Assembly: GCA_023663285.1 (NCBI GenBank)
Contig: JAMPHT010000032.1
Span: forward strand, 1-38,120
Source: Bacillota bacterium
GTDB taxonomy: Bacteria; Bacillota; Clostridia; Lachnospirales; Lachnospiraceae
Length of the DNA stretch: 38,120 nt
Reading direction: 5' to 3'
The position numbers were made by a program, and so were the translations under genes. Below, piece after piece: positions 5,474 to 38,048 of this stretch. Positions within the stretch are counted from its first letter, which is position 1, and each line of letters starts with the position of its first letter. Under the pieces are notes generated by a model that was given only the letters and a program-made list of their open reading frames with translations, had not been told where the DNA came from and did no database searches.

Positions 5474-5911
5474 GTGTATATTGGAATGATCATCGTGGCG
5501 GCAGTTCTGGGCGCGTTCATCGTGGCGGCGGTCGTCAGGCGGCGGAGGAACCGGTACTACCCCTCGGACCTGGATCTGATGGAGGGGCATGATTTTGAAT
5601 ATTATTGTGCGGAGCTGCTGCGGCGCAGAGGCTTTCAGGAGGTGGAGGTCACAAAGGGCAGCGGCGACTACGGCATCGACATCCTGGCGGAAAAGGACGG
5701 GGTCACCTACGCCATACAGTGCAAGCGGTATACCGCGCCTGTGGGGGTGAAGGCAATACAGGAGGCATACGCCGGGCGGGATTATTATGACCGAATGGTG
5801 GGGGCGGTGCTGACAAACCAGTATTTCACCCAGCCCGCAGTGGAAGCGGCTAAAAAGCTGAAGATACTGCTGTGGGACAGAGGGTATTTGGAGGAGGTAC
5901 TCAGGGAGTAA
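5474..5911 (+). CDS. Membrane-anchored restriction-endonuclease-like (Mrr_cat) protein
   Basis: About 145 residues. One N-terminal membrane helix (IIVAAVLGAFIVAAVV) is followed by basic RRRRNR and then a PD-(D/E)xK fold of the Mrr_cat type: MEGHDFEYYCAELLRRRGF, the catalytic Asp in SGDYGIDILAEKDG and the QCK motif in YAIQCKRY. The family cleaves or binds DNA; small membrane-anchored versions are common in Clostridia and their role is unknown. I chose GTG at 5474 because AGGAG lies 7 bases upstream; a TTG at 5453 and an ATG at 5486 are in frame. It is the last gene of the ABC operon. Its TAA stop lies inside the left arm of the palindromic element that follows. Confidence 0.8.
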   Translation: MYIGMIIVAAVLGAFIVAAVVRRRRNRYYPSDLDLMEGHDFEYYCAELLRRRGFQEVEVTKGSGDYGIDILAEKDGVTYAIQCKRYTAPVGVKAIQEAYAGRDYYDRMVGAVLTNQYFTQPAVEAAKKLKILLWDRGYLEEVLRE

Positions 5912-6128
5912 AGAATTTCTAAAGCTGAGAAGGACTCAGCTTAAGAAATTCTAAGTTACTCCCACAAGAATCCGCTGTGCGGATTCTTGCGACAGAGGGG
6001 AAAGCTTGGACTGAGAAATTCTAAGTCACTCCCACAAGAATCCGCTATGCGGATTCTTGCAGCAAAGGAGAAAGCTTGGACTGAGAAGAGCTAAATCACT
6101 CCATGGGGATCCGCTGTGCGGATTCTTG
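5904..6128. repeat. Composite palindromic element, locus A, with tandem 70-bp units
   Basis: Outer arms GGGAGTAA (5904-5911) and TTACTCCC (5956-5963) enclose AGAATTTCT/AGAAATTCT (5912-5920, 5944-5952) and AAGCTGAG/CTCAGCTT (5922-5929, 5935-5942), with an A-A mismatch between the inner two blocks. A second hairpin follows: CAAGAATCCGC-TGT-GCGGATTCTTG (5965-5989). The region from AGAAATTCT to the end of hairpin 2 recurs at 6014 and, more degenerate, at 6084, giving a period of 70 bp. It lies between convergent genes and could terminate transcription from both sides. Related copies are at 12620 and 37909. Confidence 0.85.
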
Positions 6129-6136
6129 CGACAGGT

Positions 6137-11021: not shown

Positions 11022-12626
11022 ATGAGCGAAATGATCAAGGATGCAGTCAGAAGCGGCAGGACCGCTCTGGGAATTGAGTTTGGCTCCACCCGCATCAAGG
11101 CGGTGCTGGTGGATGAAAGCCATGCTCCCATCGCCATGGGAACCCATGACTGGGAGAATCGGCTGGAGAACAACATCTGGACCTACAGCCTGGAGGACAT
11201 CTGGAGCGGGCTGCAGGGCTGTTACCGCAGTCTGGCGGAGGATGTCAGAGGTAAGTACGGTGAGAGCCTGACCACCATAGGCAGTATCGGGTTTTCCGGC
11301 ATGATGCACGGGTATATGGCCTTCGACAGGGCAGGAGAGCTGCTGGTGCCTTTCCGCACCTGGCGCAATACCATGACGGAGGAAGCCTGCAAAGAGCTGA
11401 CGCCCCTGTTCAGCTTTAACATTCCCCAGAGGTGGAGCATTGCCCATCTTTATCAGGCAATCTTAAACGGGGAGGAACACGTGAAGGATATTGCTTTCTT
11501 TACCACTCTTGCAGGATATATCCACTGGCAGCTGACCGGGGAAAAGGTGCTGGGCATCGGCGAGGCGTCCGGTATGTTCCCCATTGATTCCACAGCGAAG
11601 GATTTCGACGGAAGGATGATTGAACAGTTTGACAAGCTGGTTGCGGGAAAAGGCTTTCCCTGGAAACTGAAGGAGATCCTGCCCGGAGTGCTGTGCGCCG
11701 GGGAGAAAGCAGGGAGCCTGACGCCGGAGGGAGCGAAGCTTTTGGATCCCACGGGGACCCTGCAGGCAGGTATCCCCATGTGTCCGCCGGAGGGAGACGC
11801 AGGCACCGGCATGGTGGCCACCAACAGCGTCAGGGTGCGCACCGGAAATATTTCCGCAGGGACTTCTATTTTTTCCATGGTGGTTACGGAAAAAGCGCTG
11901 GAGAATGTGCATGAGGAGATCGACATGGTGACCACGCCTGATGGAAATCCCGTGGCCATGGTTCACTGCAACAACTGTACCTCCGATCTGAACGCCTGGG
12001 TGAACCTCTTCGGCGAGTTTGCGGATAAGTTCGGCATGAAGATAGACAGGAACGAGCTGTACGGCACACTGTACAGGGAGGCGCTGAACGGAGACGCGGA
12101 CTGCGGCGGGCTGATGGCATACAATTATTTTTCCGGCGAGCCGGTGACAGGCTTGAACGAGGGCAGGCCCATGTTTGTCCGTATGCCGGATGCAAAATTT
12201 GATCTGGCCAACTTTATGAGAAGCCATTTATACAGCGCGCTGGCTACATTGAAGATCGGCAATGACATTCTGCTGAAGGAGGAGCACGTGAAGGTGGATT
12301 CCCTTATGGGGCACGGCGGCCTGTTCAAGACGCCCGTGGTTGGCCAGCAGCTTATGGCGGCGGCTTTCGATTCGCCCGTCACCGTCATGGATACTGCCAG
12401 TGAGGGCGGAGCCTGGGGCATGGCAGTCCTGGCGGCATTTATGAATGAAAGGTCCGGAGACGAGACTTTGCCTGATTACCTGAGTAACAGGATATTCGCA
12501 GGGCAGTCCGGAACCACCATTACGCCAAAGGCAGAGGATGTGGCGGGCTTTGACGTTTTTGTGGAGAGATACAAGAGCACTCTGCCTGCGGAGAAGGCAG
12601 CCACCCACGGACTAAAAAAGGAGTGA
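11022..12626 (+). CDS. araB: FGGY-family sugar kinase, probable L-ribulokinase
   Basis: 534 residues. FGGY kinase with the phosphate loop [17 protein letters not shown] (residues ~15-31), substrate-site region [15 protein letters not shown], a [12 protein letters not shown] segment near residue 255 that should hold the catalytic Asp, and the adenosine region [15 protein letters not shown] plus [17 protein letters not shown]. Its position between araA and araD implies phosphorylation of L-ribulose to L-ribulose-5-phosphate. It is not a close look-alike of the E. coli or B. subtilis AraB, and the first phosphate-loop acid is Glu (IEFGS) rather than the usual Asp, so xylulokinase activity cannot be excluded. 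The TGA stop lies within the outer arm of palindromic element B. Confidence 0.85.
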
Positions 12627-12760
12627 AGATTTTCTAAGGCAGCAAAGTACGCTGCCTAAGAAAATCTAAGTCATTCCGGGAAGAATCCGCAAGCGGATTC
12701 TTCCGGCCTTGCGGCAGTTCATGGATTGTTTGTGCCTGCCGCGCAGGCATGACTGGAAAT
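12620..12760 (+). repeat. Composite palindromic element, locus B (araB-araD gap)
   Basis: Outer arm GGAGTGA (12620-12626, including the araB stop) pairs with TCATTCC (12671-12677). AGATTTTCT/AGAAAATCT (12627-12635, 12659-12667) and AGGCAGC/GCTGCCT (12637-12643, 12651-12657) follow, separated by one A-A mismatch. Hairpin 2 is GGAAGAATCCGC-AA-GCGGATTCTTCC (12679-12704). Hairpin 3 is TGCCTGC-CGC-GCAGGCA (12733-12749). The copy at 37909 has the same three hairpins with paired substitutions. In the ara mRNA it would fold between araB and araD and may attenuate, stabilise or process the transcript. Confidence 0.9.
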
Positions 12761-12796
12761 TTGAAAATTAATACAAAGTATAAACGGAGGGGTATC

Positions 12797-13498
12797 ATGC
12801 TGGAAGAGTTAAAGCGGTTGGTATATGAAGCAAATATGGATCTGCCAAGATATGGGCTGGTGACCTTTACCTGGGGCAATGTCAGCGCCATCGACAGGGA
12901 GAGCGGGCTGTTTGTCATCAAGCCAAGCGGCGTGGAATATGAGAAGCTGACGCCGGAGGATATGGTAGTGATGGATTTAAGCGGTAAAAAGGTGGAGGGA
13001 CGGTTCAATCCTTCCTCGGATACGGCCACTCACCTTGAACTGTACAAGGCATTTCCGGAAATCGGCGGTATCGTACATACCCATTCCTCCTATGCCACAA
13101 GCTGGGCACAGGCGGGACGCAGCATTCCCTGCTACGGCACCACTCATGCGGATTACATCTATGGGGAGGTTCCCTGTGTGAGATGCCTGACGAAGGAAGA
13201 GATCGAGGAGGCGTACGAGGAGAATACCGGTCACCTGATCGTGAATGAATTCAAAAGAATGGGCAAGGACCCGGTGGCGGTGCCTGCCGTGCTCTGCAAG
13301 AACCACGGTCCCTTTGCCTGGGGCAAGGATGCAAAGGAAGCAGTGCATAACGCGGTGGTGCTGGAGGAAGTGGCAAAGATGGCTTATCGGGCGGAGACGA
13401 TCGAGCCCCGCATCCAGCCGGCCCCCCAGGAGCTCCAGGATAAGCATTATTACAGGAAACACGGCGCTAACGCTTACTATGGGCAGAGCGAAAAATGA
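12797..13498 (+). CDS. araD: L-ribulose-5-phosphate 4-epimerase
   Basis: 233 residues, class II aldolase/epimerase fold, cytoplasmic, zinc-dependent. It converts L-ribulose-5-phosphate to D-xylulose-5-phosphate. Visible landmarks are [10 protein letters not shown], the phosphate-binding [10 protein letters not shown], the zinc pair H94 and H96 in [14 protein letters not shown], the GTTHADY segment, and a third zinc His, H170, in [10 protein letters not shown]. The start at 12797 has a ggagggg site; an ATG at 12749 in the same frame lies in element B and lacks one. The transketolase genes follow after about 150 bases, linking the product to the pentose phosphate pathway. Confidence 0.95.
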
Positions 13499-33147: not shown

Positions 33148-33191
33148 AAGCGGACGTTGTCCGCTTGCACGCAGGGCCGACGGCGGCCTGC
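33148..33191. repeat. Two hairpins between the EAL and amidase genes
   Basis: AAGCGGAC-GTT-GTCCGCTT (33148-33166) is a perfect 8-bp stem preceded by six As, so it has terminator form only for leftward transcription. GCAGGGCCG-ACGG-CGGCCTGC (33171-33191) is a second stem with one bulged G. Together they lie just before the amidase ribosome site. Confidence 0.45.
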
Positions 33192-33221
33192 GCTGCATTA
33201 GAATACAATGGGGTGGAAGGA

Positions 33222-34616
33222 ATGCAGGACAACAGGGCAGTGCAAAATTACGAACCGGAATTGATCAATGTCAGGAGAAATCCGTATCTGCTGGATTATG
33301 AGGAGCAGAGGCGGGGCGCGGCGCAGGGACAGCGCATGGCGCAGGGACAGCGCATGGCGCAGGGACAGCGCCAGATGCAGGGACAGCGCATGGCGCAGGG
33401 ACAGCGCCAGATGCAGGGACAGCGCCAGGAGCAGGGGCGACGCATGGTGCAGGATCGGCGAACGGCGCAAGGTCAATATGCTGAGCAGAGTACAAGGAGA
33501 GAGTCTACAGGACAGATATACAGGGATGAGGCTGTGGGCAGGCGACAGTCCCGGTCCGGATATGGTCAGGAGACAAGGCGGCCTGCGGAGCGGACAGGCC
33601 AGGCTCGTCCCGGATACGGACAGGAGACAAGGCGGCCTGCGGAGCGGACAGGCCAGGCTCGTCCCGGATACGGACAGGAGGCAAGGCGGCCTGCGGAGCG
33701 GACAGGCCAGGCTCGTCCCGGATACGGACAGGAGGCAAGGCGGTCTGTGAGAAGGACAGGCGAAGTGCAGCCCATATACGGACAGGGAACGGCGCGCCCG
33801 GCAGGCAGGACGAGAGAGGTGCAGCCTATTTACGGCCGGGATATGAGACAGACAGCCGGAAGAAGCAGGACACAGGCAGGAGCGATGAGCCGGGAAGCTA
33901 TGCTGAGAGAGCGCCGCAGGAGACAGCTGCGCAGGCAGAAAATAGCGGTAGGCATCTGGGCAGTCTGCATTATCGCCATCAGCGGCATACTTCTTTTGAG
34001 CCATAATAATGCATCTGCAGCAGAGCCTGCGGGCGCGATCAAGGATACGCAACAGCAGCAGGAGACGCTTCCCTCCAATGAGTCAGGCACTGTGATACAG
34101 GGGCTTCCCGTGGAGAAATTTACGGCTCATCCGGAGTGGACGGAGAATTTTCTGACTCCCAATGAATATTCCAGACCGGGAGAGGCGCTGACGGAGGTAA
34201 AGGACGTATTTGTACATTACACGGCCAATCCCGGAACCAGCGCGGCTCAGAACCGCAGTTATTTTGAGCAGCAGAAGGATACGCATATGGCCAGCGTCAG
34301 CGCCCATTTCATCATTGGCTACGAAGGGGAGATCATTCAGTGTGTGCCTTTGGATGAGATCGCCTATGCAGTGGCAGGCAGGAATTATGATTCTGTTTCC
34401 ATAGAGTGCTGTTACACGGCAAAGGACGGCTCTTTTACGAAGGAGACCTATGATTCCCTGATATCCCTGCTGGCGTGGCTGACAGACGCCTATGATCTGG
34501 ATACCGGCCACATCCTGCGCCATTATGACTGCGGCGGCAAGAAATGCCCCATTTATTACACGGAAAATGAGGACGAGTGGGAGCAGCTGAAGCAGAATGT
34601 AAAGGCATATAAGTAA
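33222..34616 (+). CDS. Membrane-anchored N-acetylmuramoyl-L-alanine amidase with tandem-repeat N-terminus
   Basis: 464 residues. Residues ~1-30 are unique. Residues ~31-75 are AQGQRM/AQGQRQM repeats. Residues 113-220 hold six 18-residue units (YGQETRRPAERTGQARPG type, the last three degenerate). A basic stretch leads into one membrane helix (VGIWAVCIIAISGILLL, ~243-260). The C-terminal Amidase_2/PGRP domain has zinc ligands H332 (VHYTA), H434 (HYDC) and C442 (KKCP), and cuts the amide between MurNAc and L-Ala in peptidoglycan. The Arg/Gln-rich repeat part would lie in the cytoplasm, with the amidase outside. I chose the ATG at 33222 (ggtggaagga upstream). Confidence 0.88.
   Translation: MQDNRAVQNYEPELINVRRNPYLLDYEEQRRGAAQGQRMAQGQRMAQGQRQMQGQRMAQGQRQMQGQRQEQGRRMVQDRRTAQGQYAEQSTRRESTGQIYRDEAVGRRQSRSGYGQETRRPAERTGQARPGYGQETRRPAERTGQARPGYGQEARRPAERTGQARPGYGQEARRSVRRTGEVQPIYGQGTARPAGRTREVQPIYGRDMRQTAGRSRTQAGAMSREAMLRERRRRQLRRQKIAVGIWAVCIIAISGILLLSHNNASAAEPAGAIKDTQQQQETLPSNESGTVIQGLPVEKFTAHPEWTENFLTPNEYSRPGEALTEVKDVFVHYTANPGTSAAQNRSYFEQQKDTHMASVSAHFIIGYEGEIIQCVPLDEIAYAVAGRNYDSVSIECCYTAKDGSFTKETYDSLISLLAWLTDAYDLDTGHILRHYDCGGKKCPIYYTENEDEWEQLKQNVKAYK
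33315..33450 (+). repeat. 18- and 21-bp in-frame tandem repeats (AQGQRM)
   Basis: Units GCGCAGGGACAGCGCATG (18 bp) and a 21-bp variant with CAGATG inserted alternate about seven times. All lengths are multiples of three, so copy-number changes keep the frame. Confidence 0.8.
33558..33881 (+). repeat. Six tandem 54-bp units within the amidase gene
   Basis: Units start at 33558, 33612, 33666, 33720, 33774 and 33828. The first three are nearly identical; the fourth diverges in its second half; the last two are degenerate. Each encodes 18 residues. Confidence 0.9.
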
Positions 34617-36523: not shown

Positions 36524-37843
36524 ATGGAACGGGTGATGGTCGAGAGCATCTTTAGCTTTTTGGAAATGTTGATATCTTTATTTTTTGCCGCAGGTATTTT
36601 CCGAAAAAAGATACGGGGGAAACGGGGATTGCCTGTTCTCTTTTTGTTTGCTGTTTTCGGGGCGGCTCTTTTAACGCTCCGGGAATATGTATTCCGGTGG
36701 ATACCAGATTTTTTCCCGGCAGTGCTTATTTTTACAGTATATGCCATTGCCGTTTGCAGGGCGAAATGGTGGGCGGCGGTATCCTGGGCCCTAGTAAATT
36801 ACCTGTTCATAGGCATTGTGACGATAGGCGCCGGCTATATCCTGAGAATGGGTCCGGGGCAGGCTGCAGGAGCGGATGAACGGGAAGTATACTTGTGGCT
36901 GGCTGCCCGTATTCTTACACGGACGTGTCAATTCCTTTTGTCGGTCATTATTCTGCGTATATGGAAACGGTTCCCGGAATCCGCAATGGCCCGGCGTGGA
37001 AGCCGGAAAATCATGATCGTTTCTTCTGCCAGTACTATTTTACTCTGGATCCTTTTGGGAAAGGGTTCTGATAGGAATGCGGAAGTCCTGTATTCCAACA
37101 GCCTGGTCTGCCTGCTGGTATTGGCGGTCAATCTGGCATTCCTTATTTTTGATGAGATCCTTGCGAAAGAGAAATATGTGGAGGAAGAACTAAGGACGCA
37201 GAACCAGATGGCGGCTCTGCAGATACGCAGCCAGACAGAAGTGAACCATATGTACCAGGGCATACAGTCCTTAAAGCATGATATGAACAACCATCTGCAT
37301 ACGATATCAGGTTACATACAGATCGGGGAATATGGGAAAGCCCAGGAATATGTGGAAAGGATAGCGGGGGAAATAAGCCGCGTGGAGTCGTTCCACTCAG
37401 GGAATCCTACGGTTGACGTACTGATCGGGAGCAAGACGGCGCTGGCCCGGATGAGCGGCATTGTAGTGGAGGCGGAATGCCAGGTGCCTCCTGAACTGAA
37501 GATAGCAGACAGGGACCTGACCGTGTTGATTGGCAATCTGTACGACAATGCCATTGACGCAAATCTGAAAATTGCGGATACGGACAGCCGTTTTATCCAT
37601 ATAAGGATTATGTTTGATACAGGGAATCTGTTGCTGTTGTTTGAAAATGCCACGCCAGAGGACAGCAGGATAGGGGAATCTGACAAATGGGCCACGACAA
37701 AAGAGGATAATTCCCTGCATGGATTCGGGATAAAAAATATTGACAGGATTTTGCAGGCATATGGGGGATATTGCGAAAGAGAGATAAAAGATCACGTTTT
37801 CCGCTGCAGGATAAGGATACCGGACCCGGCATTTCACGTCTGA
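36524..37843 (+). CDS. AgrC-like sensor histidine kinase (GHKL type)
   Basis: 439 residues. The N-terminal sensor has six or so membrane helices (residues ~5-215), as in AgrC-type receptors for autoinducing peptides. The dimerisation/phosphoacceptor helix is SLKHDMNNHLHTISGYIQIG with H252. The GHKL ATPase has N-box GNLYDNAIDANLK and G-box HGFGIKNIDRILQAYGG; such kinases pair with LytTR regulators. gaggg lies before the ATG. The regulator gene begins 241 bases after the stop, separated by candidate binding repeats and element C. No peptide precursor or AgrB-like protease is seen within the window. Confidence 0.9.
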   Translation: MERVMVESIFSFLEMLISLFFAAGIFRKKIRGKRGLPVLFLFAVFGAALLTLREYVFRWIPDFFPAVLIFTVYAIAVCRAKWWAAVSWALVNYLFIGIVTIGAGYILRMGPGQAAGADEREVYLWLAARILTRTCQFLLSVIILRIWKRFPESAMARRGSRKIMIVSSASTILLWILLGKGSDRNAEVLYSNSLVCLLVLAVNLAFLIFDEILAKEKYVEEELRTQNQMAALQIRSQTEVNHMYQGIQSLKHDMNNHLHTISGYIQIGEYGKAQEYVERIAGEISRVESFHSGNPTVDVLIGSKTALARMSGIVVEAECQVPPELKIADRDLTVLIGNLYDNAIDANLKIADTDSRFIHIRIMFDTGNLLLLFENATPEDSRIGESDKWATTKEDNSLHGFGIKNIDRILQAYGGYCEREIKDHVFRCRIRIPDPAFHV

Positions 37844-37895: not shown

Positions 37896-37908
37896 GAAAA
37901 GTGTGCAC

Positions 37909-38048
37909 GGAATGAAGATTTTCTAAGGCAGTAAAGTACACTGCCTAAGAAAATCTAAGTCATTCCGGGAAGAATCCGCAAGCGGATTCTTCCGATCTTG
38001 CTGCAGTTTATTGATTGTTTGTGCCGCTGAAGCGGCATGATTGGAAGT
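37909..38048 (+). repeat. Composite palindromic element, locus C
   Basis: Outer arms GGAATGA/TCATTCC (37909-37915, 37960-37966); AGATTTTCT/AGAAAATCT (37916-37924, 37948-37956); AGGCAGT/ACTGCCT (37926-37932, 37940-37946). Hairpin 2 is GGAAGAATCCGC-AA-GCGGATTCTTCC (37968-37993). Hairpin 3 is TGCCGCT-GA-AGCGGCA (38022-38037). It is collinear with locus B, but several stem pairs are changed on both sides. Here it is not attached to a stop codon and would form most of the regulator gene's leader. Confidence 0.9.

Follow-up and report, generated by a model that had tools for sequence, protein, structure and literature searches.

The window analysed here, the whole stretch of 38,120 nucleotides, is contig C25 of the 3.07-Mb assembly of a gut bacterium of the Lachnospiraceae (G000; 90 contigs, estimated 86% complete). 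It holds three copies of one palindromic element (Table 1), which a repeat search grouped as a single direct-repeat family, D3. Copy A starts at 5904, and the stop codon of an Mrr-type restriction endonuclease gene (TAA, 5909-5911) falls inside its outer (X) arm. Copy B, at 12620, sits between an FGGY kinase gene, whose TGA stop (12624-12626) is likewise inside the X arm, and an aldolase-II gene, with an arabinose isomerase gene nearby; positions 12400-13000 hold no GC-rich hairpin with a T run behind it, the mark of an intrinsic terminator. Copy C, at 37909, lies 64 nt 3' of a GHKL sensor kinase gene (36524-37843), before the end of the window. Separately, 18- and 54-base tandem repeats (families D1 and D2) occupy 33287-33815, within an open frame at 33165-34616.

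Table 1. Copies of the element and their parts in the window.
Feature	Position	Strand	Sequence or basis
H1 of copy B	12620..12677	+	sequence reading and RNA folding
Outer stem X, H1 of copy B	12620-12626/12671-12677		
B stem, H1 of copy B	12627-12635/12659-12667		
A.A mismatch, H1 of copy B	12636/12658		
C stem, H1 of copy B	12637-12643/12651-12657		
Loop, H1 of copy B	12644-12650		AAAGTAC
Bulge, H1 of copy B	12668-12670		AAG
H2 of copy B	12679..12704	+	GGAAGAATCCGC-AA-GCGGATTCTTCC
H3 region of copy B	12705..12758	+	GCCTGC 12734-12739 / GCAGGC 12743-12748
H1 and H2 of copy A	5904..5990	+	sequence reading and covariance model
Partial tandem copy 3' of copy A	6007..6060	+	3' half of H1, and H2
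Second partial tandem copy 3' of copy A, degraded	6083..6134	+	repeat search
H1 and H2 of copy C	37908..37993	+	top covariance-model match of the genome
H3 region of copy C	37994..38048	+	GCCGCT/AGCGGC

Structure of the copies in the window

The first-pass annotation described the stretches 12620-12760 and 37909-38048 as collinear copies of three hairpins that differ at paired positions, and both read as it described, collinearity extending over about 140 nt. In H1, the X stem is GGAGTGA/TCATTCC in copy B and GGAATGA/TCATTCC in copy C, the B stem is AGATTTTCT/AGAAAATCT in both, and the C stem is AGGCAGC/GCTGCCT in the former versus AGGCAGT/ACTGCCT in the latter; the loop AAAGTAC and the 3' bulge AAG are common to the two. 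H2 is identical, whereas the H3 arms change from GCCTGC/GCAGGC (copy B) to GCCGCT/AGCGGC (copy C). The paired changes claimed for hairpins 1 (C stem) and 3 are therefore real in both copies, and locus A was also confirmed to have H1 and H2, the B and C stems attributed to it, the A.A mismatch and the GAATCCGC/GCGGATTC core. RNA folding gave z-scores of -8.4 for copy B and -8.7 for copy C, with 0 of 200 shuffles equally stable, and the predicted fold of H1 and H2 is the same in the two. H3 is the weakest hairpin, since the minimum-energy fold of copy B pairs its region differently.

Family size and architecture

A DNA search returned 92 local matches in G000, and the palindromic core occurs at 37 exact places there against 0 in the control, an abundance far above chance. 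A covariance model (R1) was built from 17 aligned copies, mostly picked by requiring stems; three of its rows (L001, L052 and L062) have a wrong first letter, which affects the outermost pair column and, slightly, the model. Searched against the host and related Lachnospiraceae, as the first-pass annotation had suggested, it yielded 77 matches in G000 (E<=0.1), or 65 places once 12 opposite-strand shadows were removed, and at E<=1e-8 it found copies in 8 of 120 genomes of the family, with H1 retained and stems that are quite different. In five hand-chosen genomes, the matches at E<=1e-3, opposite-strand shadows still included, numbered 113 (G187), 52 (G422), 34 (G347), 21 (G416) and 7 (G006). 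The element is indeed dispersed, as had been proposed.

Units in the window's species are about 140-150 nt long, nearly all of it near-perfect palindromes. H1 follows one order: an outer stem, 9 bp, the A.A mismatch, 7 bp, an AAARKAC loop and a 3' bulge of 2-4 nt. This architecture is constant across Lachnospiraceae genera while the stem sequences differ, and the outer stem, CGGAATGA or GTGTGAGA, defines at least two subfamilies. Some copies have an additional hairpin at the H1 bulge, and in copies such as C82:5456, C7:5785 and C69:2774 of G000, nested palindromes (AAAGAGG...CCTCTTT; ACAATAGAATC...GATTCTATTGT) sit in the loops of the unit's other hairpins.

The distribution is patchy. By DNA search, 13 of 61 genomes match, every one in the window's genus, and none of 24 genomes from other families of the same order does. 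The exact 24-nt core was found in 35 stretches of Lachnospiraceae assemblies, with labels that include Blautia, Lachnoclostridium and Acetatifactor. The pairing-blind pattern AGN5CTAAGN17CTAAGN5CTA gave 111 matches in 20 of 397 genomes of the family, and its reversed form 5; G102 and G120 have no strict-pattern match although the covariance model finds copies in both. Plasmids contained no match to the element. Viral contigs contained 21 pattern matches, of which 18 (several near-duplicates) are at chance level, only 0-3 of their 10 pairs being complementary. Of the remaining three, one (viral contig L456) is identical to a copy in the bacterial genome G428, another (L449) has the inner stems and loop with the outer stem absent, and a third (L453) has paired inner stems and a different loop.

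Covariation and type of pairing

Covariation was counted in sequences retrieved with the same pattern, which sets the unpaired and invariant letters and leaves ten stem pairs free; 67 of the 72 listed places were used, giving 66 distinct sequences. Watson-Crick pairs fill 585 of the 660 free-pair cells, against 199-241 in slid controls. When each of 18 genomes contributes a single sequence (two chance hits left out), 89% are paired versus 50% after permutation. The fold has thus been kept across genera while the letters change, as the first-pass annotation had it. The A.A mismatch and CTAAG, which the pattern imposes, recur in copies from the DNA or model searches, and the last position of the H1 loop is C in 65 of the 66 sequences. 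We do not count as proof the covariation in the first 17 aligned copies, 15 of which were selected by requiring stems; two of the 17 copies found had been left out of that alignment and two others put in by eye.

The further step of reading paired changes as selection of a fold goes too far. In an RNA helix one would expect G.U to be accepted on the transcribed strand, but the remaining 75 cells comprised 10 G.U, 16 A.C and 49 other combinations. An enlarged set of 104 sequences, which overlaps the first and admitted those with at least six of ten inner pairs, has 9 G.U and 20 A.C in the inner stems and 7 and 6 in the outer stem, or 16 G.U versus 26 A.C overall. Double changes in 64 sequences were of the transition type in 71 cases and flips in 120, so that 120 of 191 could not have been reached through G.U. 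The argument draws on the symmetry between these two kinds of mismatch and on what is generally known of stems in RNA. Pairing so nearly confined to Watson-Crick is suggestive of DNA hairpins, or of one arm being corrected from the other by template switching, for which a precedent is reported in RNA genes (PMC8794818); the paired changes can be explained by either without RNA selection, and covariation alone is no proof of RNA function.

It is quite improbable, in our judgement, that no fold is selected at all and that template-switch correction during replication is the sole source of complementarity. Such correction predicts scarce G.U and A.C mismatches and a majority of flips among the double changes (PMC8794818), as is seen. 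It should, however, also have removed the A.A mismatch and the bulge on the 3' side, yet both persist, and it leaves the conserved loop, the orientation and the position unexplained.

Position and direction relative to genes

Genes were called with an in-house codon model, for which the window served as training sequence; it failed on G422. In G000, both flanking genes run in the element's direction at 53 of the 65 copies; 5 copies precede a convergent gene, 3 follow a divergent one, 4 lack one neighbour, and none lies between two genes read the opposite way. Of the 41 copies inspected in four other genomes, 26 stand in tandem contexts (25 sense, 1 antisense) and 4 in convergent or divergent ones, with 11 not fully resolved. 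Tandem contexts are therefore sense in 53 of 53 and 25 of 26 cases, 78 of 79 in total, where two gene pairs are each counted twice for tandem copies (C55:80384 with 80550, and both copies of L395). The single copy found between two oppositely read genes is L402 (G187:C46:16211). We considered replication strand as the cause of the orientation and set it aside as improbable: on contigs with copies on both strands, 17 of 18 tandem copies from the four other genomes follow the local genes, L402 being the exception.

In G000 the element contains the upstream stop codon in 27 of 60 cases; the stop comes 0-9 nt before it in 25 and farther off in 8, and all three frames are represented (21, 17 and 14). 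In some copies (for example L069, L078, L091 and L191) the 3' end holds a Shine-Dalgarno sequence serving the following gene; by inspection, many downstream genes have theirs outside the unit. The placement of copies at or near the upstream stop codon, oriented with the gene, is new. The first-pass annotation was right about a dispersed, fold-keeping element and missed its fixed orientation, its position at stop codons and its presence, with different stems, in other genera; its suggestion of an RNA element between genes of one operon gains support from the sense, intercistronic position.

H1 has three conserved CTAA motifs, which start TAA in three frames (offsets 8, 30 and 40), and sense TAA in both arms forces the A.A mismatch. 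All three frames are shut by the sense strand in 78 of 104 copies, versus 31% of shuffles (650 of 2080). As a reason for the orientation, three-frame stops were rejected, as the antisense strand shuts three frames in 90 of the 104. In most copies that have nested inserts in the loop the frame relation is lost, and across copies the third CTAA motif is often CTATG or CTACG. Stop codons fail to explain the sense-only orientation, and so does DNA transposition alone.

Insertion at empty orthologous sites

At the kinase-aldolase junction, H1 was present in only one (G036, a few codons earlier) of 28 relatives with both ends readable, and G192 (L200) retains a remnant whose tail resembles H3. For 16 further copies we inspected 35 orthologous junctions in seven relatives, picked by hand among the matches. 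H1 is absent from 34 of these junctions, which cover 15 copies; the single junction for the 16th (L337, for C9:4955) has no downstream alignment. Three of the 34 (L330, L344 and L348) contain H3 words or other remnants, so some sites were formerly occupied or have lost a copy.

Individual junctions locate the insertion at the end of the upstream gene. At C58:1759 the relative has overlapping stop and start codons (ATGA), and the element lies between the two genes. At C82:5456, C13:6181 and C44:78576 the relative's stop is the same codon as the TGA that starts the unit, and at C15:32760, C5:46327 and C44:83374 the last codons are different or replaced. With no H1 at the 34 junctions of 15 copies, these copies are recent insertions at, or a few codons from, a natural stop. 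Recent mobility read from empty orthologous sites is what a MITE would show, which lends support to the REP/MITE-like candidate that had been put forward. One copy, C7:5785, is flanked on both sides by AAGTGCGAA, a motif also present within the unit, and some units have AAGTGTGA in direct orientation at both ends, which is indistinguishable from a duplication.

Copies shared between species

Some sites are occupied in several species. A copy at the rpsH-rplF junction occurs in seven species, one from another genus, and other sites that recur across species are rpsN-rpsH, infB-rbfA, and those before gltX and before a thyA-like gene (gene names read by eye from translations). Occupation of the same orthologous sites in several species or genera looks like long retention or function. 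Five rpsH-rplF copies have a common derived base (CTAATAAAATC); in four of them the C stems differ by paired changes, one with G.U, and the fifth (G001) is mismatched. This subgroup indicates that some copies are old and that their fold was kept in place.

Among 30 species of the genus, drawn from 38 with an rplF match of 61 searched (seven further junctions lie outside the count), the rpsH-rplF junction has H1 in 12 (a remnant only in one), another palindromic element in 6 and neither in 12. The second palindrome is AAATCAAGCACGAGCGAAGCGAAGTATTTGATTT-like and is followed by TCGAGAAAAC...GTTTTCGAGATG; it was seen at L257, L262, L268, L274, L276 and L281, and the five of these six loci that were searched have no Rfam match.

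These sites bear on a host mRNA element, that is, an intercistronic hairpin bound by an RNA-binding protein or endoribonuclease and spread by recombination, which might act in processing, in stabilisation of the upstream mRNA or in slowing termination. We regard this as a tentative alternative, possible though not likely. Besides the shared sites in housekeeping operons and the derived-base subgroup with its paired changes, it is favoured by the conserved loop and bulge, by the stop-codon position and by the fixed sense orientation that the gene calls give, as expected of structured mRNA; in addition, a reduction of translation is reported for those REPs of E. coli that lie no more than 15 nt from a stop codon (PMC12306157). 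Against it, G.U is not above A.C, most double changes bypass G.U, and the covariation with tolerated G.U that a structured mRNA should have was not seen. Nor is H1 needed, since it is absent at rpsH-rplF from 18 of the 30 species, where another palindrome can occupy the junction, and 377 of 397 genomes have no pattern match, a figure to be read with the variants missed by the strict pattern (G102 and G120) in mind.

Comparison with known families

The first-pass annotation could name no family for the element, and none emerged. Rfam (release 15) gave no match at gathering score in the window or in 8 loci and none up to E=0.05 in 14 loci; one copy had five sub-threshold, chance-like matches. 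No described family was matched in a comparison that covered Rfam, REP features and mainly open-access literature.

REP, BIME and REPIN sequences resemble the element as short dispersed palindromes that are mostly intergenic and species-specific and reach tens to hundreds of copies. Unlike them, it has a fixed order of three hairpins and a fixed sense orientation in place of alternating or both orientations, and it lacks a consistent Y1 transposase. We know of no dispersed palindromes in bacteria that hold one strict direction. The tag GTAG/GTGG marks the REPs of RAYT systems (PMC2817692, PMC3733652), and a word search of the main texts of these papers finds no mention of Firmicutes or Clostridia. 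Of 119 copies of the element, 10 have GTRG in the 14 nt before the outer stem and 5 have CYAC in the 14 nt after it, which is about chance level.

A REP or REPIN mobilised by a RAYT (Y1 tyrosine transposase) would account for a dispersed, palindromic, intergenic, high-copy element, and Y1_Tnp is present in G000, G422 and G347. Y1_Tnp matches were found in 8 of 16 genomes searched, with 4 in the copy-rich G422 and 2 in the copy-rich G347, mostly full-length. However, they are absent from the carriers G416 (21 model matches), G036, G195, G001 and G017 (G036 and G017 being 82 and 87% complete), the richest carrier, G187, has only a 47-residue match with a stop, and G074, G002 and G031 have one or two each with no element match in the DNA, model or pattern searches. 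Together with the head motif at chance level and the orientation that does not alternate, this makes a RAYT origin very improbable, and we rejected Y1 as the mobiliser, although two copy-rich genomes have it. The sole Y1 region of G000 (G000:C23:16323-16702; L107, L108 and L150) is in two pieces in different reading frames; the nearest copy of the element is about 2.4 kb away, and none lies at its ends.

Bacterial MITEs and modular repeats such as ERIC, BOX and bcr1-like units are about 100-200 nt long, non-autonomous, intergenic, structured and modular. The element is like these, and like RU-type units, in being short, non-autonomous, intergenic, structured and modular; it differs from MITEs in having no established terminal inverted repeat or target duplication, and in an H1 architecture that stays constant while stems are replaced. 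Integron attC sites form single-strand hairpins with unpaired bases and a variable terminal structure, in sense behind ORFs. An attC-like recombination site would thus fit the sense position at ORF ends, the near-strict Watson-Crick stems, the variable loops with nested palindromes and the one-sided bulge. Its neighbours, however, are ordinary operon genes and not gene cassettes, no attC box (GTTRRRY-type) was seen by eye, and the genes stand in the same order in relatives that lack the element, so it is not moved by cassette exchange; we hold this reading to be extremely improbable. RNase III processing sites are sense intercistronic mRNA hairpins with a long stem and an internal bulge, from which the element differs in being mobile and patchy and in having no G.U excess.

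A proposed mobile element of gene junctions

Our leading reading, to which we give about even confidence, is a new mobile element, palindromic and non-autonomous, whose speciality is the junction between genes. It would settle where one gene follows another, in transcription direction and with its 5' end at the upstream stop. H1, with its A.A mismatch, 3' bulge and AAARKAC loop, may serve as the recognition hairpin of a putative trans-acting enzyme, and would probably be read as single-stranded DNA, given near-strict Watson-Crick pairing in which G.U is not preferred over A.C. Template switching from arm to arm may help maintain the complementarity. Sense copies may persist because the unit is a ready-made intercistronic spacer, which would place hairpins behind the stop and, in some copies, a 3' Shine-Dalgarno sequence before the next gene.

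A mobile element is favoured by mobility, patchy occurrence and the nested palindromes, an mRNA-level effect by direction, by place and by the old sites that species share. We hold that the former describes the nature of the element and the latter why sense copies survive. The Y1_Tnp search found no mobilising gene, which counts against the mobile-element reading. A SINE-like bacterial element moving through RNA, whose structured RNA would be attached to mRNAs at translation stops, or be copied from them there, and then return to the chromosome, is unlikely; if it were true, sense insertions at gene ends would arise directly and not by selection.

The sense position at stop codons in 78 of 79 tandem contexts means that either the element targets transcription or translation, or a strong mRNA effect filters its copies. 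Within one genus, the rpsH-rplF junction with the H1 element, with the second palindrome or with neither is a natural experiment. More generally, selection on RNA does not necessarily follow from paired changes in a hairpin of a bacterium, and counts of G.U versus A.C help to separate the possibilities.
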